Shown here piece after piece: positions 5,504 to 14,429 of a stretch of 64,000 nucleotides of DNA. Source of the stretch: Jiella sonneratiae (GTDB lineage: Bacteria; Pseudomonadota; Alphaproteobacteria; Rhizobiales; Rhizobiaceae); NCBI RefSeq assembly GCF_017353515.1, contig NZ_JAFMPY010000009.1, forward strand, positions 124,001-188,000, read 5' to 3'. Made by a program: the position numbers and the translations under genes. Position 1 is the first letter of the stretch. Each line of letters starts with the position of its first letter. The notes under the pieces were generated by a model. The model was not told the origin of the DNA. It saw only the letters and a program-made list of their open reading frames with translations, and made no database searches.

Positions 5504-5522
5504 CCCTGGCTCCGGAGGATCC

Positions 5523-5594
5523 TAGTGGTCCGATTCCGACATTTGCTACCGTCTTCTGGAGACCGCGCAGCAGATGTCGGAATCGGAAGTCCAC
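5523..5594. repeat. TAGTGG hairpin element 1
   Basis: An imperfect inverted repeat whose left arm reads TAGTGGTCCGATTCCGACAT. The right arm, on the other strand, reads GTGGACTTCCGATTCCGACA, so it pairs except for an extra ACT bulge in the right arm. The loop is about 25 nt. Related elements lie at 5613-5690, 12129-12207 and 12223-12297; all share the outer GTGG and the inner GACAT. It lies upstream of the minus-strand glycosyltransferase, in the divergent region 5504-5933. Confidence 0.85.
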
Positions 5595-5612
5595 GAGCCA
5601 AGTTTATGATGC

Positions 5613-5690
5613 TATTGGATTTTTTCGAATTTGACATTTGATATGACGCTTCACCCGATTGGGGCACAAACGTCAAATTCAATCCACTGG
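5613..5690. repeat. TAGTGG-family hairpin element 2
   Basis: An inverted repeat with left arm TTGGATT, an unpaired TTTTC, then GAATTTGACATTTG. The right arm, read on the other strand, is CCAGTGGATTGAATTTGACG. The arms pair apart from the bulge and an A/G change. Its core, GGATTGAATTTGACATT, is nearly that of element 3 at 12129. Element 1 lies 18 nt to the left. In the rest of the divergent gap (5691-5933) I see no gene or further repeat apart from the expected start region of the GT8-like gene. Confidence 0.8.
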
Positions 5691-5933
5691 CATCGTCGCA
5701 GGCCCGCGACCTGCCGGGCTCGATAGACGGTCTTGTCGCAAATGGCCAGCGGCGGGAGGTTTCGTCGGGCCGATTGACCTCGATCAAGGCGCCTCTGCTG
5801 CACTGCCGCGAAACCCTTCGTCACGCGCCGCCCCGCCGTCGCCACCATTCCGGGCCGGTCCGTTGCTAAGCCCGGCTTCAAGTGGCGCAGCCTTCTTGCT
5901 AGGAGAGGCGCAAACGGAAAGGGAAACCCGTCA

Positions 5934-6623
5934 ATGTCCATCGATACCGCCCGCGTCTTCATCGGCTTCGACACCAAGGAGGTGATCGCCTATCACGTCC
6001 TCGCCCAGAGCATCCTCGAGAATGCGTCGATGCCCGTGCAGTTCACGCCGATCGTGCTGAGCAATCTCAAGGGTATCTTCGAGCGCGAGCGCAACAATCT
6101 CCAGTCCACCGAATTCTCCTTCTCGCGCTTCCTGGTGCCGGCGCTGTCGGGCTTCGAGGGCTGGAGCCTGTTCATGGACTGCGACATGATGCTGCGCGCC
6201 GACATCGCCGAACTGTGGAAGCTGCGCGACGACCGCTACGCGGCGATGTGCGTCAAGCACGACTACGTCCCGAAGATCGAGACGAAGTTCCTCGGCCAGA
6301 CGCAGACCAAGTACGAGAAGAAGAACTGGTCGAGCGTCATCCTGTTCAACAACGCCAAGTGCCGCGCCCTGACGCAGGATTACGTCAACAGCGCCACTGG
6401 GCTGCAGCTCCACCAGTTCAAGTGGCTGGAGAACGACGATCTGATCGGCGAACTGCCGAAGGAGTGGAACTGGCTGGTCAACGAATACGACTACAACCCC
6501 GACGCCAGGAACGTCCACTTCACCGATGGCGGTCCGTATTTCGAGGAATACAAGGACTGCGACTATGCCGACGAATGGTTCGCCGCGCGCGAGCGCACGC
6601 TGTTCGTCCAGCAGCGGGCCTGA
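5934..6623 (+). CDS. GT8-like glycosyltransferase
   Basis: A 229-residue cytosolic GT-A glycosyltransferase. RVFIGFDTKEVIAYHVLAQS at residues 7-26 is the typical opening of GT8-like proteins. FMDCDMMLRADIAEL (around 81-95) carries the DCD metal-binding motif, and NVHFTDGGPYFEEY near residue 195 is the C-terminal donor-site histidine block. The ATG at 5934 lies behind an AAAGGGAAA stretch. It is divergent from the minus-strand glycan cluster and followed by another GT29-like gene, so it probably works on the same glycan. Substrate unknown. Confidence 0.85.
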   Translation: MSIDTARVFIGFDTKEVIAYHVLAQSILENASMPVQFTPIVLSNLKGIFERERNNLQSTEFSFSRFLVPALSGFEGWSLFMDCDMMLRADIAELWKLRDDRYAAMCVKHDYVPKIETKFLGQTQTKYEKKNWSSVILFNNAKCRALTQDYVNSATGLQLHQFKWLENDDLIGELPKEWNWLVNEYDYNPDARNVHFTDGGPYFEEYKDCDYADEWFAARERTLFVQQRA

Positions 6624-6749
6624 GGTGGCGCAGCCGATTCGCAGATCCCCGGCCGGACGGTCGCCGAGCCGACGAAGGCCCGGCCGGCGGCCGCCGCGGG
6701 GCGCGGCCACGGCGGCCACGGCGGCCACGTCCGTGACGCCGGCCAGCCC

Positions 6750-7571
6750 ATGAACCGCCTGCCGAGCGATCCGGACGGCTGGGCCGGCTTCTTCTCGCGC
6801 CATCGCACGGTCGTCCTCGTCGCCAACAGCGAGGCGGCGAATGTCGAGGCGCTGCGCGAAAGCTTCGGCGACGGAGTCCTCTTCGTCTTCTTCAACAAGG
6901 TCTACAAGGTGCTGAAGGCGCCCTTCGACGGGCCGTCGCTGCTCGTCGCGCGCTCCTCGATCGCCGGCGCGAACATCGTCCACCGCCGCGAAGTCGAGAC
7001 GGTGTGCGGCTATTTCGAAGGCCCCGGCTTCTCCGGCATCCTCAACCTGAAGGCGCTCGCCGCCGAGCGCTTCAGCGAGGCGCGCGACTTCGGCGAGCGC
7101 TCGGTCGGCCATCTCGACCTTGCCGCGGATTTTGCCGATTTCTACCCGCCGGACTATGCGCCGACGACGGGCTTTGCCCTGGCGCTCTGGCTGTCCGAAC
7201 GGTGCGGGGGCCTGCGCATCGTGCTCGCCGGCTTCTCCGCCGAGCGCTCCGAGCGCTGGAAGCTCTTCCACGACCACGACTGGACCTTCGAGCAGATCGT
7301 CCTCAGGCTGATGGCCCGCTCCGGGCGGATCGAGATGCGGGGCGGCCGCGAGGCGACGCCGCTCGACCGGATCGCCGCCCGCTTTCCCGAGGTGCCGCCG
7401 GCCGAGGTGGCGCTGGTCGCGGCCGAGGTGCTCGCCGCCCGCCAGGAGGGCACCAACCGCTCGGTCGACCGCCTCTATTCCATCGTGAGGCCGCTTGCCG
7501 GGCTCGACGGGCTGCTGCGACGTCTGAAGCCGAAGACCCGCAAAGAGAAGCTCGCCGAATCCGGCCGCTGA
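6750..7571 (+). CDS. Sialyltransferase(GT29)-like protein 3
   Basis: A 273-residue protein. VVLVANSEAANVEAL at 21-35 fits the first nucleotide-binding motif of GT29-like enzymes. PTTGFALALWLSERCGG with RIVLAGFSAERS after it (around 137-165) is close to sialylmotif S, followed by FHDHDWTFEQIVL, a histidine-containing block I associate with bacterial GT29-like proteins. It differs clearly from the two GT29-like proteins at 863 and 3923. The 126-nt gap after the GT8-like gene contains a GGCCACGGC triplet run but no gene. Use of a CMP-sugar such as CMP-Kdo is plausible but unproven. Confidence 0.75.
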   Translation: MNRLPSDPDGWAGFFSRHRTVVLVANSEAANVEALRESFGDGVLFVFFNKVYKVLKAPFDGPSLLVARSSIAGANIVHRREVETVCGYFEGPGFSGILNLKALAAERFSEARDFGERSVGHLDLAADFADFYPPDYAPTTGFALALWLSERCGGLRIVLAGFSAERSERWKLFHDHDWTFEQIVLRLMARSGRIEMRGGREATPLDRIAARFPEVPPAEVALVAAEVLAARQEGTNRSVDRLYSIVRPLAGLDGLLRRLKPKTRKEKLAESGR

Positions 7572-7652
7572 GCGGACGGGCCGCCGCCGCCCCGGCTTGC
7601 CGCGATCACGCGAACGTCAGGGCGGCGCCGGCGCGAGGACGCGTATCTGTTG

Positions 7653-7692
7653 CAGGCAGGCAGGCAGGCAGGCAGGGCAGGGCAGGGCAGGG
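7653..7692. repeat. Simple-sequence tract (CAGG)5 then (CAGGG)4
   Basis: Five CAGG units (7653-7672) pass directly into four CAGGG units (7673-7692), ending 45 nt before the ATG of the DUF3095 gene. The reading frame of that gene is open upstream through the tract to 7597. Changes in copy number could therefore alter leader length, or the frame of an upstream-started protein. No other tract of this type was noticed in the window. Confidence 0.9.
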
Positions 7693-7737
7693 CAGGACCG
7701 GAACGGGCTCCGGCGGTGCGAGCGTGGGAGTGAGGCC

Positions 7738-8982
7738 ATGGAGGAGATGGCGGCGGCGGGCGAACGTCATGCGGCCGGGCGCGGCGAAGGCGCCGGGGCC
7801 CCGGCCGCTGCCGGTCCGCCGGGCGCGGGCGGTCTCGGCTTCTACGAGGCCCTGCCGGTCGAGACGCAGTTCGCCCGGCTTGCCGATCCTGCCGTCTATC
7901 ATCCGCTGCCCGCAGACTGGACGATCGGCCTCGCCGACATCGAGCGATCCACCGACGCGATCGCCGAGGGCCGCTACAAGGCGGTCAACACCGTTGCCGC
8001 CGCAGTGATCGCCGCGGTCGCGAACCGGCTGCCCGGCCACGACTTTCCCTTCGTCTTCGCCGGCGACGGGGCGAGTTTCGCCCTGCCTCCCGCCGCCGCC
8101 GCGCTCGGCCGCGAGGCTCTCGCGGCGGTCGCCGGGTGGGCGCGCGAGGCCTTCGGCTTTCGCCTGCGCATCGCCGCCGTCACGGTCGCGGAGATCCGCA
8201 GGCGCGGTCACGACGTGGCGGTCGCCCGCTTCGCCGCCTCCAGGGACGTCGCCTATGCGATGTTTTCGGGCGGCGGCCTCGCCTTCGCGGAAACCCGCAT
8301 GAAGGCCGGCGAGTTCACGCTCGAAGCGGCGGATCCGGAGACTGCGCGGCCGGACCTTGCGGGGCTTTCCTGCCGCTTCTCGCCGATCGCGGCGCGCCAC
8401 GGCGTCATCCTCTCGCTGATCGCCCTGCCGGCGGCGGGGGCCGATCCGGAGCGCTTCGCCGCTCTCGCCGCCGAGATACTCGGCCTCGCCGCCGCGGAAG
8501 TGCCCGACGCTGGGCGCCCGGTTCCCTCAGAGGGGCCGCCGCAGCACTGGCCGACCCGGGGGCTGGCGATCGAGGCGCGGGCGGCGGCGGCCCGCACCGG
8601 CCGGCCGCTCTGGCGCTCCTTCCTGTCGGTGGCGCTGCGCTCCTTCCTCGCCCATCTGACCTTCGTCTCGCGGCTGAAGGTCGGCGATTTCGAACCGGTG
8701 CGCTACCGCTCGGAACTCGTCCGGAACACCGATTTCCGCAAGTTCGACGACGGCCTCAGGATGACCCTCGACTGCACGCCCGAGGTCGCGGACCGGCTGG
8801 AGGCGCGGCTTGCGGCGGCGGAGCGGGAGGGCATCGCCCATGCCGGACTGCACCGCCAGGACGCCGCCCTCCTGACATGTTTCGTTCCGGCGGCCAGCCG
8901 CTCCGACCACGTCCACTTCGTCGACGGCGCGATGGGCGGCTATGCGGCCGCGGCGGCAACGGCCTTCGCCAAGCGCCGGTGA
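7738..8982 (+). CDS. DUF3095 protein (nucleotide-cyclase-like fold)
   Basis: A 414-residue protein of family DUF3095. The N-terminal 50 residues are low-complexity (Gly/Ala), then FYEALPVETQFARLADPAVYHPLP opens the conserved part. GLADIERSTDAIAEGRYKAVN (around 63-83) looks like the metal-binding start of class III nucleotide cyclases, and FVFAGDGASFALP (around 105) resembles their second metal-site hairpin. Catalytic activity is not established. The ATG at 7738 is chosen because it follows a purine-rich GGGAGTGAGG; the open frame extends back to 7597 through the CAGG tract. It stands alone between the glycan genes and tRNA-Leu. Confidence 0.85.
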   Translation: MEEMAAAGERHAAGRGEGAGAPAAAGPPGAGGLGFYEALPVETQFARLADPAVYHPLPADWTIGLADIERSTDAIAEGRYKAVNTVAAAVIAAVANRLPGHDFPFVFAGDGASFALPPAAAALGREALAAVAGWAREAFGFRLRIAAVTVAEIRRRGHDVAVARFAASRDVAYAMFSGGGLAFAETRMKAGEFTLEAADPETARPDLAGLSCRFSPIAARHGVILSLIALPAAGADPERFAALAAEILGLAAAEVPDAGRPVPSEGPPQHWPTRGLAIEARAAAARTGRPLWRSFLSVALRSFLAHLTFVSRLKVGDFEPVRYRSELVRNTDFRKFDDGLRMTLDCTPEVADRLEARLAAAEREGIAHAGLHRQDAALLTCFVPAASRSDHVHFVDGAMGGYAAAAATAFAKRR

Positions 8983-9039
8983 CATGTCCGCGACCGGCCG
9001 GTCCATGACGGTCGGGCGATGCACGCTGGTTTCGGGACA

Positions 9040-9126
9040 TGGTGCGGGTGGTCGGACTCGAACCGACACTCTGTCACCAGAAACGGATTTTGAGTCCGTC
9101 GCGTCTACCGGTTCCGCCACACCCGC
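9040..9126 (-). tRNA. tRNA-Leu (anticodon CAA)
   Basis: On the minus strand the 7-bp acceptor stem GCGGGTG pairs with CACCCGC, followed by A and a genomically encoded CCA. The anticodon stem ACGGA/TCCGT encloses the loop CTCAAAA, giving anticodon CAA (codon UUG). The T arm contains GGTTCGAGTCC, and a long variable arm as in class II leucine tRNAs is present. No integrase lies nearby, so the locus does not look used as an attachment site. Confidence 0.95.
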
Positions 9127-9553
9127 TCGCGCCTTCCGGTCGGGGCGGCCCCAGTCGGTGCCGGCGCTTCGACCGCGCGCGGCCGCTTCCATGCCACGAT
9201 CACCGCCCCGCCGTCCAGACGATGCCGGAAGATATTCAAGGCTTCCCCGCGCGTCGCCCGCCATGCGTTCGCTCCGGGGGAGGGCATCCCGCGCGCCTGC
9301 CGCCAGGGCCGCGGATGCCGGCAGCAGGCCGGGTGACGGGATTGCCTCGGCAGGCGCTTTTGCCTAGAGCATCGGGCGGCGACGTGTCTGTGGTTCGTTT
9401 CGCGCCGTGCCGCGCGCGACGACGCGGTCGGCGGTCGGGGATCTCGACCCGAAAGGGCTGCCGTTCCCAACGCGCCCTCGTCGACGCCCGATGCTTCAAT
9501 CGCGAGGGGCCGATCCGGCATCCCGTTCGCTCAAGTCCGGATCGACGCCCTCC
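9127..9553. other. Gene-poor interval between tRNA-Leu and the YqaA-like gene
   Basis: No convincing gene was found in these about 430 bases. Open frames here lack ribosome sites and family motifs. A frame from 9407 runs in phase into the YqaA-like gene, but its first 49 codons look like non-coding GC-rich sequence. No repeat of the TAGTGG type is present. Confidence 0.6.
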
Positions 9554-10135
9554 ATGCTGCGCCGCCTCTATGACCGGGTCCTGTCGCTCGCCGCGACGCG
9601 CCACGCCGAGCGTGCGCTCGCAATCGTCGCCTTCGTCGAGAGCTCGGTCTTCCCGATCCCGCCGGACGCGCTGATCATCCCGATGGTCATCTCCGACCGG
9701 CGGAAGTGGTTTCGCATCGCCCTGGTCTCGACCGTCGGCTCGGTGCTCGGCGCCTTTCTCGGCTATGCCATCGGCGCGCTGTTCTTCGACGTCGTCGGCC
9801 AGCCGATCCTCGCCTTCTACGGCAAGGCCGACGCCTTCGGCGACCTCGCCCTGCGCTACAACGAATGGGGCGGCTGGGCGGTGCTCTTCGCCGCCTTGAC
9901 CCCGTTTCCCTACAAGGTGCTGACGATCTTTTCCGGCGTCACCGGGCTGAACCTCGCGGTCTTCACCCTCGTCTCGATCGTCGGGCGCGGGGCGCGCTTC
10001 TTCCTCGTCGCCTGGCTGCTGCATCGCTACGGCGCGCCGATCAAGGGCTTCATCGAGACCAATCTCGGCCTGCTCTTCACCCTGTTCATGATCCTGCTGA
10101 TCGGCGGCTTCGTCGCGATCCGCTACCTGTTCTGA
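9554..10135 (+). CDS. YqaA/DedA-like (SNARE-associated) inner-membrane protein
   Basis: A 193-residue polytopic membrane protein. It opens MLRRLYDRVLSLAATRHAE, then FVESSVFPIPPDALIIPMV (about 30-48), the glutamate/proline re-entrant signature of YqaA-type DedA proteins, with further hydrophobic segments around 55-80, 112-135 and 170-190. DedA-family proteins act in lipid translocation and membrane homeostasis. The ATG at 9554 fits the conserved family N-terminus. The dsbB gene follows 9 nt later, so the two probably form an operon. Confidence 0.85.
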   Translation: MLRRLYDRVLSLAATRHAERALAIVAFVESSVFPIPPDALIIPMVISDRRKWFRIALVSTVGSVLGAFLGYAIGALFFDVVGQPILAFYGKADAFGDLALRYNEWGGWAVLFAALTPFPYKVLTIFSGVTGLNLAVFTLVSIVGRGARFFLVAWLLHRYGAPIKGFIETNLGLLFTLFMILLIGGFVAIRYLF

Positions 10136-10144
10136 GGCAAGCGA

Positions 10145-10678
10145 ATGTCCGTCCTCGATCTCGCCCGCCGGCCGACCGGCTTCCGCCAGGTGCTCGCCTC
10201 GGGCTTTCTCGCGACCGGCATGGCGATCGCCGTCGGGGCGGCGCTGCTCTTCCAGTATGTCGGGGGCTACATTCCGTGCGCGCTCTGCCTGGAAGAGCGC
10301 ATCCCCTATTATGTCGGCGTACCGCTCGCCGCCGTCGCCTTCGTCGCGGCGGCCGGCCGGGCGCCGGCGCCGCTGACCCGCGGCCTCCTCCTCCTCGTTG
10401 GCCTGATCATGCTCGTCTCGCTCGGCCTCGGCGTCTATCACGCCGGCGTCGAATGGCACTTCTGGGCCGGGCCCACCGGCTGCAGCCAGGTCGGCGGCGG
10501 TGGGCTCTCCTCCGGCGATCTCCTCGCCGACATCGACGCCGTGCGGCCGCCCTCCTGCGACGCGGCTGCCGGCCGCTTCCTCGGCCTCTCCTTTGCCGGC
10601 TGGAACGCCATCGCCTCGGCGCTGTTTTCGGCCGTCGGGCTCCGATCGGCCGTCGCCAGGGCGGACCGCTTCGCCTGA
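10145..10678 (+). CDS. dsbB: Disulfide bond formation protein B
   Basis: A 177-residue inner-membrane quinone reductase that reoxidises DsbA. The first periplasmic pair is C45-A-L-C48 (IPCALCLEER). The second periplasmic loop has C113 (TGCSQ) and C139 (PPSCD). Hydrophobic segments lie around 18-40, 55-70, 80-100 and 150-170, giving the usual four-helix topology. The loop carrying the second pair is glycine-rich. It directly follows the YqaA-like gene. No dsbA is in the window. Confidence 0.9.
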   Translation: MSVLDLARRPTGFRQVLASGFLATGMAIAVGAALLFQYVGGYIPCALCLEERIPYYVGVPLAAVAFVAAAGRAPAPLTRGLLLLVGLIMLVSLGLGVYHAGVEWHFWAGPTGCSQVGGGGLSSGDLLADIDAVRPPSCDAAAGRFLGLSFAGWNAIASALFSAVGLRSAVARADRFA

Positions 10679-10715
10679 ACCCTGACGGCGAGCCCGCCGC
10701 GGCCTTGGCGCTTCC

Positions 10716-11363
10716 TCACGCCGGGGCGCGGGCGAAGGCCGAGGCGATGCCGGCGCCGACGAGGCAGGCGGCGCCGAAGCGGCCGGCGGCGGTAAGTGCC
10801 CGGGGCCGGCGGAGCAGCCCGTGGGCGGAGGCGGCGAGCCGGGCATAGGCTGCGGCATTGACGAGGCCGAGGATCACGAAGGTCGCGACGAAGACCGCCG
10901 CCTGCGGCAGGTAGGCGTGCCCGGCCTCGACGAACTGCGGGACGAAGGCGGCGAAGAAGACGAGACCCTTGGGATTGAAGACGGTGACCAGGAAGGCGTC
11001 GCGGAAGATGCGCGCCGGACGGCTGCCGGCACCGCCGGCTGCCGCCGCAAGGTCCGCCGCCTCGGCCGGCCTCGGCGGATGACGCCAGAGCCTGACGCCC
11101 ATATAGACGAGATAGGCGGCGCCCGCCCATTTGAGCACGGCGAAGGCCTCGGCGGAGGCCGAAAGCAGGGCGCCGACGCCGGCGAGCGAGAGGCTCGCCG
11201 CGACGAGATCTCCGAGGCCGACGCCGAGAATGCTCGCCAGCGCGACCTTGCGGCCGTGGGCCAGCGCCTGGCCGACGACCATCACCACCGTCGGGCCCGG
11301 TATGGCGAGAAGGACGAGGGAGGCGAGCGCGAAGGCGGCGAAGGTGGTCGGTTCGACGGGCAT
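10716..11363 (-). CDS. LysE/RhtB family amino-acid exporter
   Basis: A 215-residue membrane protein with the hallmark IPGPTVVMVVGQALAHGRK near residues 20-40, GLGDLVAASLSLAGVGALL (50-70), the KWAGAAYLVYMGVRLWR segment (78-94) and VTVFNPKGLVFFAAFVPQF (around 125-145), all typical of LysE/RhtB exporters of amino acids or homoserine lactones. Six hydrophobic stretches are visible. It is convergent with dsbB. Its divergent neighbour is the Uma2 gene, 183 nt away, and nothing further was recognised in that gap. Substrate unknown. Confidence 0.9.
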   Translation of the reverse strand: MPVEPTTFAAFALASLVLLAIPGPTVVMVVGQALAHGRKVALASILGVGLGDLVAASLSLAGVGALLSASAEAFAVLKWAGAAYLVYMGVRLWRHPPRPAEAADLAAAAGGAGSRPARIFRDAFLVTVFNPKGLVFFAAFVPQFVEAGHAYLPQAAVFVATFVILGLVNAAAYARLAASAHGLLRRPRALTAAGRFGAACLVGAGIASAFARAPA

Positions 11364-11546
11364 CCGGGGCTCCTTCCGTGAGAAGACCGAGAGAGCCTCA
11401 CGACGCACCGACTTGTCCAGAGCCTCACAGATGCCGCCCGGGACCGAGCTTGCGTCGACGAGTGGCCGCGAGCACGGCGCCCCCCTGCTTCTCCGGCGAG
11501 CCGGAGATGCTATGGTGGCCCGGTCGCCAATTCCCGGAGGGACGCC

Positions 11547-12131
11547 TTGAGCGGGGCTCGGCAGACGCATTGGACGGTGGAAGAGTTTCTGGTCTGGCAG
11601 GAAGGCCGGCCGGGACGCTACGAATTCGTCGGCGGCGAGCCGGTGAAGATGATGACCGGGGCGACGGCCCGCCACGACGAGATCGTCCTCAACGTCCTAG
11701 CCGAACTGCGCCAGCGCTTGAGGGGAAACCCTTGCAGGCCCTTTACCGCAGATCTCTGCGTCAAGACCATCGACGATCGGATCCGCCGGCCGGACGCTGG
11801 CGTCGATTGTGGCCATCGCGCTCCCACCGATCTGGTCGCAAAGAAGCCCGTCCTCGTTGTCGAAGTCTTCTCGCCGTCGACGCGTGACCTCGATCGGGCG
11901 ATCAAACTCACCGAATACAAGGCGGTGCCGTCGATCCGCACGATCTTCTATGTCGAGCCGAACCGTCCGGAGGTTTATGTCTTCGAGCGGACTGACGATG
12001 ACGGTTGGAGCGAAGGGCGCCGCGTCGTCGGCCTCGAAAACGACGTCGCGATACCGGCCCTCGGCATTTCTCTGCCGCTTGCCGAAATCTACGACGGCAT
12101 CACCTTCGTTCCCGGCCCGCTGCTCGGCTAG
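11547..12131 (+). CDS. Uma2-family (DUF820) nuclease-like protein
   Basis: A 194-residue protein of the PD-(D/E)xK-like Uma2 family. WTVEEFLVWQEGRPGRYEFVGG opens the domain. RRPDAGVDC supplies the aspartate and PVLVVEVFSPSTRDLDRAIKLTEY the E-x(n)-K residues. TTG at 11547 is chosen as start because TCCCGGAGGG stands at normal spacing and the family N-terminus begins right after it. The stop codon TAG is the first triplet of hairpin element 3. A second Uma2 gene lies at 19646. The natural role of Uma2 proteins is not settled; nuclease activity is inferred from the fold. Confidence 0.85.
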   Translation: MSGARQTHWTVEEFLVWQEGRPGRYEFVGGEPVKMMTGATARHDEIVLNVLAELRQRLRGNPCRPFTADLCVKTIDDRIRRPDAGVDCGHRAPTDLVAKKPVLVVEVFSPSTRDLDRAIKLTEYKAVPSIRTIFYVEPNRPEVYVFERTDDDGWSEGRRVVGLENDVAIPALGISLPLAEIYDGITFVPGPLLG

Positions 12132-12207
12132 TGGATTGAATTTGACATTCGAACACCCTCTCGGTTTCGATTGCCCTATGGAATGTCAAAGTCGCAAAAT
12201 CCACTAG
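12129..12207. repeat. TAGTGG hairpin element 3
   Basis: An inverted repeat with left arm TAGTGGATTGAATTTGACAT. The right arm, on the other strand, reads TAGTGGATT, an unpaired TTGC, then GACTTTGACATTCC. The outer TAG at 12129-12131 is the stop codon of the Uma2 gene. The core nearly equals that of element 2, 6.5 kb away. Element 4 begins 15 nt to the right, after an AT-rich spacer containing CAATATTTTAG. Confidence 0.85.
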
Positions 12208-12222
12208 AATCAATATTTTAGA

Positions 12223-12297
12223 TAGTGGTGTCACGACCGAGACATTTGCTTTGGCGTCTGACACAAACGAGGACCAAATGTCTCGGTCACACCACTA
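12223..12297. repeat. TAGTGG hairpin element 4
   Basis: An inverted repeat with left arm TAGTGGTGT, an unpaired CAC, then GACCGAGACATTTG. The right arm, on the other strand, reads TAGTGGTGTGACCGAGACAT and continues TTGG. Outside the bulge the pairing is perfect over more than 20 bp. The right-hand TAG (12295-12297, minus strand) is the stop codon of lutC. The hairpin pair therefore fills the whole convergent gap between the Uma2 gene and lutC, where it could act as a two-way terminator. Confidence 0.85.
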
Positions 12298-12981
12298 GAC
12301 CAGATCCCCCACCACTAGGATATGCAGGCTGCGCGGGCCGTGCGCGCCGAGAAGCAGCGTCTGTTCGATGTCGGCGGAGCGCGACGGCCCGGTGACGAAG
12401 TTGACGCTCCGCGGCATGACGCCCTTGCCATGCCGTTCCCGAAGCTGCGCCAGCGCCGCCTCCATGTCGCCGACGACGTCGGCGGCGTCGAGCACCACGA
12501 GGTGGTATTCGGGCAGGAAGTTCAGACTGGTCGGATTGTCCGGTCCCGAGGTGAGGAACAGCGTGCCGGTCTCGGCGATGCCCGCCGCGGCGTGGGAAAG
12601 GCTCGACAGGTCGTCGCCGTCGCTCGGGCCGGTGGTCACCGTCAGCGCGGTGGCGGAAAAGTCGAGCCCGGCAAGGCGCGGGTCGCGTCCCATGCGGATG
12701 GCCGCCGGGAGGTTGCGCTCGCGCAGATAGCCGGCGACCTCGTCGGGCACCGCATCGTAGCACGTCAGCCGGGTCACCGTCGCGTCGGCCTTTTCGGCCA
12801 TCGCGACGAAGAGGTCGAGCCGCTCGCCCGGCGGCAGCTGCCCGCGCTTCGGAACGATGCCGGCCGGCGCCGCGCCGAGGCGGGCCGCGACGACGGCGCG
12901 GCGCTCGGCATCGTTGGCCGGGTTCGCGCCGACGGCACGGCGAATGCGGCCCATCACGGCGTCTCTGGTCGAACCGCTCAT
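12295..12981 (-). CDS. lutC: LutC/YkgG-type lactate utilization protein
   Basis: A 228-residue LUD-domain protein, the third component of the LutABC L-lactate oxidation complex. Characteristic are ALTVTTGPSDGDDLSSLSH, AGIAETGTLFLTSGPDNPTS and the C-terminal VNFVTGPSRSADIEQTLLLGAHGP with the LHILVV end. It overlaps lutB by 4 nt (ATGA). Its stop codon is the outer TAG of hairpin element 4. It closes the lutA-B-C minus-strand series, which is interrupted by a macrodomain gene and DUF29 genes. Confidence 0.92.
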   Translation of the reverse strand: MSGSTRDAVMGRIRRAVGANPANDAERRAVVAARLGAAPAGIVPKRGQLPPGERLDLFVAMAEKADATVTRLTCYDAVPDEVAGYLRERNLPAAIRMGRDPRLAGLDFSATALTVTTGPSDGDDLSSLSHAAAGIAETGTLFLTSGPDNPTSLNFLPEYHLVVLDAADVVGDMEAALAQLRERHGKGVMPRSVNFVTGPSRSADIEQTLLLGAHGPRSLHILVVGDLV

Positions 12982-14429
12982 CGTGCCGTCTCCCTGCCGC
13001 CGCTTCGCATGTGGCCGTGGCCGCTCTGGGCGTAGGCCTGCATGAAGGTGCGGCCCTCGGGCGCCGGCAGATCGCGCCACTTGGTCCAGCCGCCGGCGAG
13101 CGGCAGCTTGCGGAAGCGCCGCTTCGGCCCGGCGAGGAGCTTCAGGGCCGGCATGGCGAAGGAGACCGCCGCCCGGTAGAGCTTCGGCCGCCTGGCGAAA
13201 TAGGCCCACAGGCCGAGGCCGGCCCGGGCGGTCGCCGGCTGCAGATGGCTCTCGAACTCCTTTTCGCGCCAGTGCCGCATCATCTTCGGCAGCGGGATGC
13301 GCATCGGGCAGACCGCCTCGCAGCGCCCGCAGAAGGTCGAGGCGTTGGGCAGATGCCCGGCCTTGTCGACGCCGATCAGCGAGGGGGTGAGGACGGCGCC
13401 CATCGGCCCCGGATAGACCCAGCCGTAGGAGTGGCCGCCGACGGCGTGATAGACCGGGCAGTGGTTCATGCAGGCGCCGCAGCGGATGCAGCGCAGCATG
13501 TCCTCGAACTCCGTGCCGAGCATGTTGGACCGGCCGTTGTCGAGGAGGACGACGTGATATTCTTCCGGCCCGTCCTGGTCGTCGGGGCGTTTCGGCCCGG
13601 TCGAGAGCGTCGTGTAGACGCTCATCTCCTGTCCCGTCGCGGAGCGGGCGAGGACGCGCAGGATCTGCGCCGTGTCCTCCAGCGTCGGCACGATCTTCTC
13701 GATCGAGGCGAGCACCACGTGGCACTTTCCGAGCAGCTGGGTGAGGTCGCCGTTGCCTTCGTTGGTGACGATCACCGAGGTGCCGGTCTCGGCGATGAGG
13801 AAGTTCGCGCCGGTGACGCCGATGTCGGCCTCGCCGTATTTTTGGCGCAGGATCTGCCGCGCTTCCGACAGCAGCGTCTCGGGCTTCAGGAGGTCGCGCT
13901 TGGGATCGAGATCGACGTGGAACCTGCGGAAGTCCGCCTCGACCTGGTCGCGGTTGATGTGGACGGCGGGCGCGATGATGTGGCTCGGATGCTCGCCCCT
14001 GAGCTGGATGATGTATTCGCCGAGATCGGTTTCGACCGGGGTGATGCCGTTCTCTTCGAGGAAGGCGTTGAGGCCGATCTCCTCGGAGATCATCGTCTTG
14101 CCCTTGGTGACGGTCTTCGCCTTCCGCCGTCTCGCGATGTCGAGGAAGATCCGCCTGGCGTGGTCGGCATCCTCGGCGAAGTGGACCTTGCCGCCGGACG
14201 CTTCCACCTTCGCGACATAGGCCTCGATATAGAGGTCGAGGTGCTTCAGCGTGTGCTGCTTGATCGCCATGGCGCTGTCGCGCAGCGCCTCGAATTCCGG
14301 CAGCGCGTCGGCGGCTTTCTGGCGTTTGCCGATGAAGCCCTTCTCGACGTGTTTCAGCGCGCGCTGGAGATCGACGTCGGCGAGCGCCTTGACCGTGTTG
14401 GCCTTGAAGGTCTGTGAGGTGATCTGCAT
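12978..14429 (-). CDS. lutB: LutB-type iron-sulfur lactate utilization protein
   Basis: A 483-residue protein with an N-terminal LUD domain (NFLIAETGTSVIVTNEGNGD at 209-228) and two 4Fe-4S clusters. The first is C314-x2-C317-x2-C320-x3-C324 (CIRCGACMNHCP); the second begins C367-x2-C370-x3-C374. It passes electrons from L-lactate together with LutA and LutC on the cytoplasmic side. lutC overlaps its 3' end. Upstream there are only 8 nt to the DUF29 remnant, so transcription probably runs through from lutA. Confidence 0.93.
   Translation of the reverse strand: MQITSQTFKANTVKALADVDLQRALKHVEKGFIGKRQKAADALPEFEALRDSAMAIKQHTLKHLDLYIEAYVAKVEASGGKVHFAEDADHARRIFLDIARRRKAKTVTKGKTMISEEIGLNAFLEENGITPVETDLGEYIIQLRGEHPSHIIAPAVHINRDQVEADFRRFHVDLDPKRDLLKPETLLSEARQILRQKYGEADIGVTGANFLIAETGTSVIVTNEGNGDLTQLLGKCHVVLASIEKIVPTLEDTAQILRVLARSATGQEMSVYTTLSTGPKRPDDQDGPEEYHVVLLDNGRSNMLGTEFEDMLRCIRCGACMNHCPVYHAVGGHSYGWVYPGPMGAVLTPSLIGVDKAGHLPNASTFCGRCEAVCPMRIPLPKMMRHWREKEFESHLQPATARAGLGLWAYFARRPKLYRAAVSFAMPALKLLAGPKRRFRKLPLAGGWTKWRDLPAPEGRTFMQAYAQSGHGHMRSGGRETAR

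Follow-up and report, generated by a model that had tools for sequence, protein, structure and literature searches.

A twin-hairpin, probably mobile and MITE-like repeat at CTAG sites in Alphaproteobacteria

Results

The analysis of the window (the whole stretch of 64,000 nucleotides of Jiella sonneratiae DNA) has revealed that its four bulged hairpins make up two composite elements of about 170 bp, and that elements of this type are very probably mobile, with CTAG as target. The composites are best explained as a MITE-like, REPIN-shaped non-autonomous element of Alphaproteobacteria that is moved in trans, a reading to which a probability of about 0.6 is given.

Architecture and folding of the twin-hairpin element

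In each composite a 14-nt linker joins hairpin A to hairpin B, which is inverted (Table 1). Hairpin coordinates were assigned with the model R1 (window offset 124000), and the four inverted repeats proposed in a preliminary description of this DNA were found at positions agreeing within a few bases. Both hairpins carry CTAG-TGG feet and inner GACATTTG arms, the outer arms being about 20 nt long (TGG-NN-Y-GANT-NN-GACATTTG) with an imperfect match between A and B. The stem of the A hairpin of composite 1 includes two GANTC sites, at 5532 and 5580. As had been described, the bulge is one-sided, and in both composites the arm turned towards the partner hairpin is the one that carries this asymmetric bulge. 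The second and third repeats, for which a common stem had been noted, are both of type B, and the first and fourth, whose stems had been considered different but self-complementary, are both of type A, the fourth being a rare stem variant. The preliminary description took the single hairpin as the repeated element; single-hairpin units do occur elsewhere, but the usual unit is the pair.

Table 1. Features of the two composites and of the genes adjoining composite 2 (positions of the window).
Feature	Position	Strand	Remarks
Composite 1 (A hairpin, linker, inverted B hairpin)	5522..5690	+	169 bp; outer right foot degenerate (CTGG)
A hairpin of composite 1	5522..5597	+	Outer foot CTAG, inner foot CGAG
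Linker of composite 1, CCAAGTTTATGATG	5598..5611	+	Many copies in own genome have a similar linker
B hairpin of composite 1	5612..5690	-	Bulged arm towards linker
Composite 2 (B hairpin, then inverted A hairpin)	12128..12298	-	171 bp; both outer ends CTAG
B hairpin of composite 2	12128..12207	+	
Linker of composite 2	12208..12221	.	
A hairpin of composite 2	12222..12298	-	Rare stem variant TGTGACCGA/TCGGTC, pairing kept
Left CTAG of composite 2	12128..12131	.	TAG at 12129-12131 serves as stop of the upstream Uma2 gene
Right CTAG of composite 2	12295..12298	.	TAG stop of the convergent LUD-domain gene on the complement
Uma2 (PF05685) gene	11547..12131	+	Ends in left CTAG of composite 2; neighbour, outside the element
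LUD-domain (PF02589, LutC-like) gene	12295..12999 (start end approximate)	-	Ends in right CTAG of composite 2; neighbour, outside the element

When the four window hairpins were folded as DNA and compared with 200 dinucleotide shuffles each, z values of -6.1, -4.1, -6.2 and -7.2 were obtained, and none of the 200 shuffles folded as well in any of the four cases. Watson-Crick pairing reached 84% in 176 unique stems, a figure computed without a pairing-favouring filter, versus 57% with shuffled arms (1000 shuffles, maximum 61%). A lack of covariation between the arms had been named beforehand as a result that would speak against the family, and the arms do covary strongly between copies. No Rfam match to the element at the gathering score was found in the window, where only a tRNA was matched, or in 11 loci submitted.

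Copy number and distribution

The search for further copies in the genome and its relatives, also set beforehand as a test, yielded many of them. The J. sonneratiae genome (G000) contains at least 34 composites, and hairpin matches were found in 19 of the 61 genomes of the family (own genome included) and in none of the other 42, with counts that range from 0 up to 71 and at least 78 matches. The copy-richest family genomes are G000, G016, G025 and G032, followed by G019 with 15 matches. Within the genus to which G016 belongs many genomes carry copies, Brucella also hosts the family, and nearly all of the 80 listed loci that carry the element are named as Alphaproteobacteria. The length is 165-172 bp in 182 of 192 composites. 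Copies are dispersed and sometimes tandem, nested or tandem copies having one CTAG in common; in G016, five tandem arrays have both units complete and all of them are head-to-tail. At locus L004, two copies that share TAG are inverted relative to each other.

Insertion at CTAG and at gene ends

The outer CTAG is present on both sides of 117 of the 192 composites, and 55 of the remaining 75 still have it on one side. The comparison of filled and empty loci that had been proposed earlier was achieved cleanly at one locus, in genome G086, where the filled site reads GACGGCGAG-CTAG-TGG...CCA-CTAG-AATAG and corresponds to one insertion into a single CTAG. The element was absent from this site in all 12 relatives examined, among 34 other genomes of that genus, and the bases at the empty site were CTAG (followed by AGTAA) in five of them, TTAG in three, CTGG in two and unlike bases in two. 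G070 has the element at the same place as G086, as seen in an ungapped alignment of both loci (L293 and L303). The target duplication at this site is CTAG or its TA. Two more filled/empty pairs (about 85% identity) were not clean, one having other bases at the target and the other 18 extra bases, and at a further filled/empty site the left junction alone was readable. In a viral contig (L414), a DNA-methylase-like gene is interrupted by the element at CTAG, and the open frames from both sides run into a CTAG copy. At the window site, no copy was found beside the orthologous downstream gene in nine other genomes of the genus, in which the intergenic DNA is too diverged for the junction to be read.

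A clear coding signature extends as far as the foot in 59 flanks, and in 47 of these the TAG of CTAG is in frame as the stop, when a third would be expected (p 4e-13). Among 76 composites for which both flanks were tested, two, including composite 2 of the window, have outer TAGs that each terminate one of a pair of convergent genes. A gene whose stop codon lies within the CTAG is still terminated there after the insertion. Because CTAG is rare and can contain a stop codon, insertion of the element at the end of a gene need not destroy that gene, a property that may have contributed to its abundance in so many alphaproteobacteria.

Solo units consist of hairpins of 72-75 nt formed by two unbulged outer arms alone, and 9 of the 13 solo loci viewed are flanked by CTAG on both sides. 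Because these arms alone also sit between CTAGs, the outer arms behave as terminal inverted repeats.

Discussion

In the mechanism proposed, a transposase acting in trans would read the outer arms (TGG-NN-Y-GANT-NN-GACATTTG) as terminal inverted repeats and would cut CTAG in a staggered manner, with duplication of either the whole CTAG or its TA alone, and the bulged inner arms would preserve the ability of both ends to form hairpins. IS630/Tc1-type and IS5/IS427-type DDE enzymes make such staggered, target-duplicating cuts, and the mover is probably a DDE rather than an HUH enzyme. The defined target site and ends provide a handle for finding the missing transposase, and the element is also useful as a genome-comparison marker.

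A parent element was sought in several ways. In G016, no opposed outer-arm partner was seen by eye 0.4-5 kb away, array units apart, among the 100 of 101 matches listed. Neither a transposase nor a longer element with the same ends was found beside those unpaired hairpins that were viewed in the own genome or in G101, and no parent element was seen in plasmids (short-arm BLAST), in seven viral contigs or among the 40 largest clusters of open frames of the 80 loci. ABC-transporter components formed the clusters that recurred most, with 13 and 9 of 80 loci, followed by a LysR-type regulator with 5; these names were assigned from the sequence.

Some points weigh against this mechanism: an HUH cut between CT and AG would leave identical CTAG ends, and the head-to-tail arrays of G016 are not predicted by a palindromic target alone, although the inverted neighbour at L004 does exist. 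The conserved inner bulged arms are not required by a plain model of terminal inverted repeats, and the clean empty site is a single one. Joint changes of the inner and outer feet in some copies suggested that the inner foot might select the target by base pairing, as a 'guide'; this idea was dropped because few matching non-CTAG pairs exist among 294 hairpins and 55 of the 75 composites mentioned above have a one-sided CTAG.

It is regarded as rather unlikely that the element is an already described repeat found in new genomes, either Bru-RS or one of the CIR classes (CcrM-associated intergenic repeats, present in alphaproteobacteria such as Caulobacter and Brucella). CIR elements were reportedly described by Chen and Shapiro in 2003. 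According to a later review, they consist of two long inverted repeats as two arms plus a linker, with TA termini and a conserved GANTC, measure about 110 bp with GANTC at the terminal loop, and are said not to occur inside genes (PMC2229807). The present element also has two arms, a linker and TA ends, 78 of its 116 unique A outer arms contain GANTC, and it too is spread over many genomes, as in the genus that includes G016. However, GANTC is located here in the A stem rather than in the terminal loop and B has it in only one of 60, the L414 copy lies inside a gene, and the composite lengths given above and the 72-75 bp of the solos differ from about 110 bp and from the 103-106 bp cited for the Bru-RS palindromes. 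A different two-arm, CIR-like-looking sequence, separate from the element, abuts a copy at locus L109. In favour of Bru-RS, an IS711 insertion has been described at a YTAR site within a Bru-RS1 (PMC3163539). No published name for the twin-hairpin family was found among the papers listed by the literature searches, CIR and Bru-RS being compared by description only.

We consider it unlikely that the element is REPIN-like and moved by a Y1 (HUH) REP-associated transposase, the bulged hairpin being recognised as single-stranded DNA, cut beside CT and rejoined into another CT|AG. The bulged hairpins, mirrored pairs, single-hairpin units, head-to-tail arrays and variable but paired stems would all fit such an enzyme, as would the need for the bulge and the cut at CT published for the E. 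coli enzyme (PMC8266576). The look-up of a RAYT/Y1 transposase suggested in the preliminary description gave no match in the own genome, where PF01797 was not found, and neither was it in G016, G025 or G032. This domain was found in six of the 61 family genomes, three of the 19 with hairpins and three of the 42 without; the copy-rich G019 has one Y1_Tnp match above the cut-off, and G020 and G050 one each, but it is absent from the other 16 hairpin-bearing genomes. Moreover, no orientation or replication-strand bias of the copies was seen against the local GC skew (91 of 172, a weak test), the tag is CTAG rather than GTAG or CGTC, and the solos lack the bulge. A Y1 transposase as mover is not supported, though three of 19 hairpin-bearing genomes have one. 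The likeness to REP/BIME elements noted earlier holds for the mirrored bulged hairpins, the high copy number, the gene 3' ends and the tandem arrays, but not for the Y1 link.

It seems quite improbable that these are class-wide, structure-read hairpins without a known transposase. In such a system, an enzyme of a new kind would recognise the ends in their folded form, with pairing and bulge conserved but the stem letters free to vary, and insert them into CTAG, and CcrM methylation of GANTC in the A-end stem would link the system to the cell cycle. A structured RNA or bidirectional terminator selected at gene 3' ends, and not primarily mobile, would account for the stop-codon position, sometimes between convergent genes, and for the paired stems, but is very improbable and appears already disfavoured on the pattern of presence and absence in the genomes compared, with the element missing from all 12 relatives at one site and from the nine at the window site, counts running from no match in 42 of 61 family genomes to 71 and at least 78, and no Rfam match.

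Comparison with known systems

CIR, as described, resemble the present family in their occurrence in Alphaproteobacteria including Brucella, two hairpin arms with a linker, TA ends, GANTC, intergenic location and high copy number, and differ by description in their length of about 110 bp, the GANTC in the loop and the one-hairpin solos found here. Bru-RS1 and Bru-RS2 are likewise palindromic repeats, contain a YTAR site into which IS711 inserts, and occur in a genus that also hosts the present family; by description only, they are set apart by their 103-106 bp.

REP, REPIN and BIME elements with their RAYT (TnpAREP) share with the composites the mirrored bulged hairpins, a constant foot tetranucleotide, tandem arrays and an extragenic location. 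Nevertheless, REP and REPIN have a GTAG or CGTC tag beside a hairpin of 20-40 nt, whereas the present element has CTAG and hairpins of 72-80 nt, leaves CTAG on both sides and is without a RAYT (Y1_Tnp) gene in 16 of the 19 hairpin-bearing genomes.

As in MITEs, the element is short, non-coding and dispersed in many copies, its outer arms fall within the 15-30 bp of terminal inverted repeats, and a target site duplication was found at the one clean site. Bacterial MITEs whose movement is attributed to IS630-type transposases, such as RUP of pneumococcus (PMC2229807), are also below 200 bp, without a gene, and have terminal inverted repeats, TA ends and a target duplication; in the present element each end is a complete bulged hairpin, and a parent IS was not found among the copies and contigs viewed. 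The element joins the bulged, covarying hairpins of the REPIN type with the terminal repeats and target duplication of the MITE type, features that are usually found apart.

Structure and covariation of the hairpins

The four inverted repeats of the preliminary description have been confirmed (Table), and the folding of each is far stronger than that of its shuffled versions (z from -4.1 to -7.2). They form two composites, in each of which a type A and a type B hairpin are mirrored about a 14-nt linker, with the bulge of both hairpins in the linker-side arm. The second and third repeats, described as having a common stem, are both of type B, and the first and fourth, described as differing yet self-complementary, are both of type A, the fourth being a rare stem variant in which pairing is kept.

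Table. Coordinates of the composites and associated features
Feature	Sequence	Position	Content
Composite 1	window	5522-5690	two hairpins (5523-5594, 5613-5690)
Composite 2	window	12128-12298	two hairpins (12129-12207, 12223-12297)
Uma2-type putative nuclease gene	window	11547-12131	terminates in composite 2
Copy splitting a DNA-methylase-like gene	viral contig L414	5961-7436	

Covariation of the arms was found in 176 unique stems from all fetched loci, counted with no pairing filter, in which 84% of pairs at nine variable positions were Watson-Crick versus 57% with shuffled arms (maximum 61%, 1000 shuffles); the values were 84 versus 66% within type A and 86 versus 75% within type B. A covariance model of the hairpin (R1) was built from 20 hairpins, and in its 150-row alignment, itself structure-fitted, 18 of 23 pairs were changed on both sides, which was matched by none of 500 shuffles. 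Pairing is mostly missing at stem position 10 (27%), which is part of an internal loop that usually has 3-6 bases, mostly A-rich, on the inner arm. The outer-arm consensus is CTAG-TGG-NN-Y-GANT-NN-GACATTTG. GANTC, the CcrM site, was present in the outer arm of 78 of 116 unique type A stems and 1 of 60 type B stems; since independent column shuffling already gives 76 in type A, this count follows from the composition of the columns and cannot serve as a functional test. In the window (1-64000), GANTC occurs 80 times, versus about 186 predicted from base composition.

Copies and distribution

The element is real and widespread. The view that the hairpins constitute a family was borne out in the Jiella sonneratiae genome (5.15 Mb), with 44 matches to the hairpin-B pattern at up to 3 mismatches (reversed control, 0) and at least 146 matches to R1 among the best 150 of 1757 candidates scored, both strands counted; at least 34 composites were recognized there, 32 picked by hand from R1 matches and the two of the window. 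Copies were also found in relatives, R1 being matched at E<=0.001 in 19 of 61 family genomes (own included), with the highest numbers in the own genome and G016 (at least 78 each), G025 (71), G032 (20), G019 (15) and G003 (14). A scan of named genomes yielded at least 117 stretches with a match, and the 80 identified by title were from Alphaproteobacteria or just 'Proteobacteria', except one titled Marinicella (L174). The titles included Brucella, Rhizobium, Mesorhizobium, Agrobacterium, Chelatococcus, Pleomorphomonas, Methylocystis, Sphingobium, Novosphingobium, Kiloniella and Hyphomonadaceae. Plasmids seldom carry the composite (11 of 72,556 records).

Probable insertion at CTAG

The presence/absence evidence indicates that the element is mobile. 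One clean empty site was obtained: the filled site of G086 reads GACGGCGAG-CTAG-TGG...CCA-CTAG-AATAG, and it is empty in all 12 relatives selected for comparison, with CTAG in five (G074, G075, G095, G097, G098), TTAG in three, CTGG in two and unlike bases in two; G070 carries the element at the same site (ungapped alignment). Two more filled/empty pairs (about 85% identity) show presence and absence with junctions that are not clean, TTGCAG replacing the ends in the empty site of one and 18 additional bases being found in the other. A site in G016 could be read at its left junction alone, with CAG-CTAG versus CAGCTAAC, CAGTTAAC and similar sequences in 10 relatives. The outer feet of 192 composites were CTAG on both sides in 117, on one side in 55 and on neither in 20, two of these last having identical other four bases at both ends. 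The window (1-64000) contains 15 CTAG sites, five inside or adjoining the two composites.

The coding-flank test covered 222 CTAG outer feet in G+C-rich surroundings; a clear coding signature extended up to the foot in 59. The TAG of the foot was an in-frame stop in 47 of these and fell in the other two frames in 12 (expected, one third; p 4e-13, related-species copies not being independent). Both flanks could be tested in 76 composites, and in two of these the outer TAGs were both stops of convergent genes. One of the two is composite 2, whose left CTAG ends the Uma2 gene and whose right CTAG ends a LUD-domain gene (domain match to residue 230 of 234). The simplest account would be that both genes formerly ended on one common CTAG, doubled by insertion. 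No recurrent Uma2 neighbour was recognized among the 40 largest open-frame clusters of the loci.

In the metagenomic viral contig L414 the element interrupts a gene at CTAG, which both flanking open frames reach; the right piece matches a DNA-methylase domain end and the left piece no Pfam family. Because this copy splits a viral-contig gene and L414, L415 and L418 carry two copies each, phages may spread the element.

Solos, arrays and neighbouring repeats

Single hairpins of 72-75 nt (solos), in which an A-type outer arm is combined with a B-type outer arm and the bulge is lacking, were found in Novosphingobium genomes and one other such record. Among 13 loci viewed out of 30 fetched, 9 held solos with CTAG on both sides, 1 had CCAG on one side, 1 was unclear, and the pattern was not found in 2. 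As solos consist of outer arms only and have CTAG on both sides in 9/13, these arms appear sufficient for movement. Five G016 tandem arrays have both units complete and shared CTAGs, every one head-to-tail; an own-genome locus (L004) has an inverted pair with a common TAG.

Other repeats were observed nearby. A sister class of hairpins, whose feet are CTAGTG-like and in which GAAGTTC replaces GACATTTG beside the loop (to the right of the composite in L091; also L104 and L162), is at times chained to, or nested within, the CTAG twin-hairpin family. At L109, a two-arm repeat of about 100 nt, starting AGCGCATCCCGAAAAGTG and with GATTC near the loop, adjoins CTAG directly right of a composite and appears CIR-like, judged solely from how such elements have been described in print. 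At another own-genome place (L375, same as L029) a B hairpin is broken by a palindromic repeat, CGGTTTCCGGCAGATCACTTCG..., and a stretch similar to it lies beside a second degenerate hairpin in L374.

Candidate movers and known relatives

The previously suggested link to a Y1 (HUH) transposase (Pfam PF01797) was not supported: this enzyme was not found in the four copy-richest genomes, the own genome among them; it was detected in 6 of 61 family genomes, 3 of 19 with hairpins (G019, fifth in copy number, G020 and G050) and 3 of 42 without. No longer element bounded by these arms at a spacing of 0.4-5 kb was found among 100 of 101 G016 arm matches, array units aside, and no orientation bias was detected. 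CTAG or TA duplication together with inverted end repeats fits IS630- and IS5/IS427-type elements, and a DDE enzyme acting in trans is therefore the preferred mover. An HUH enzyme cutting beside CT is a less probable alternative, with which identical ends would result. For the DDE comparison, the YTAR/TA rule of IS711 was taken from PMC2266754 and PMC3163539, and RUP with IS630-Spn1 from PMC2229807.

On its ordinary side this is a small non-autonomous repeat; its unusual side is the combination of covarying bulged hairpins with CTAG-duplicating, stop-codon-tolerant insertion. The literature considered included work on TnpAREP (PMC8266576), a survey of GTAG/CGTC REPs (PMC3733652) and RepRanger (PMC12306157). 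Bru-RS1/2 and RIME were also considered as possible relatives, and Br-REP1 and Br-REP2 of Bradyrhizobium differ from the present element in consensus sequence (PMC5082802). The closest described architecture is CIR of alphaproteobacteria, which likewise has a pair of arms joined by a linker, with TA at the ends (PMC2229807); going by that description, it differs in length and GANTC place.
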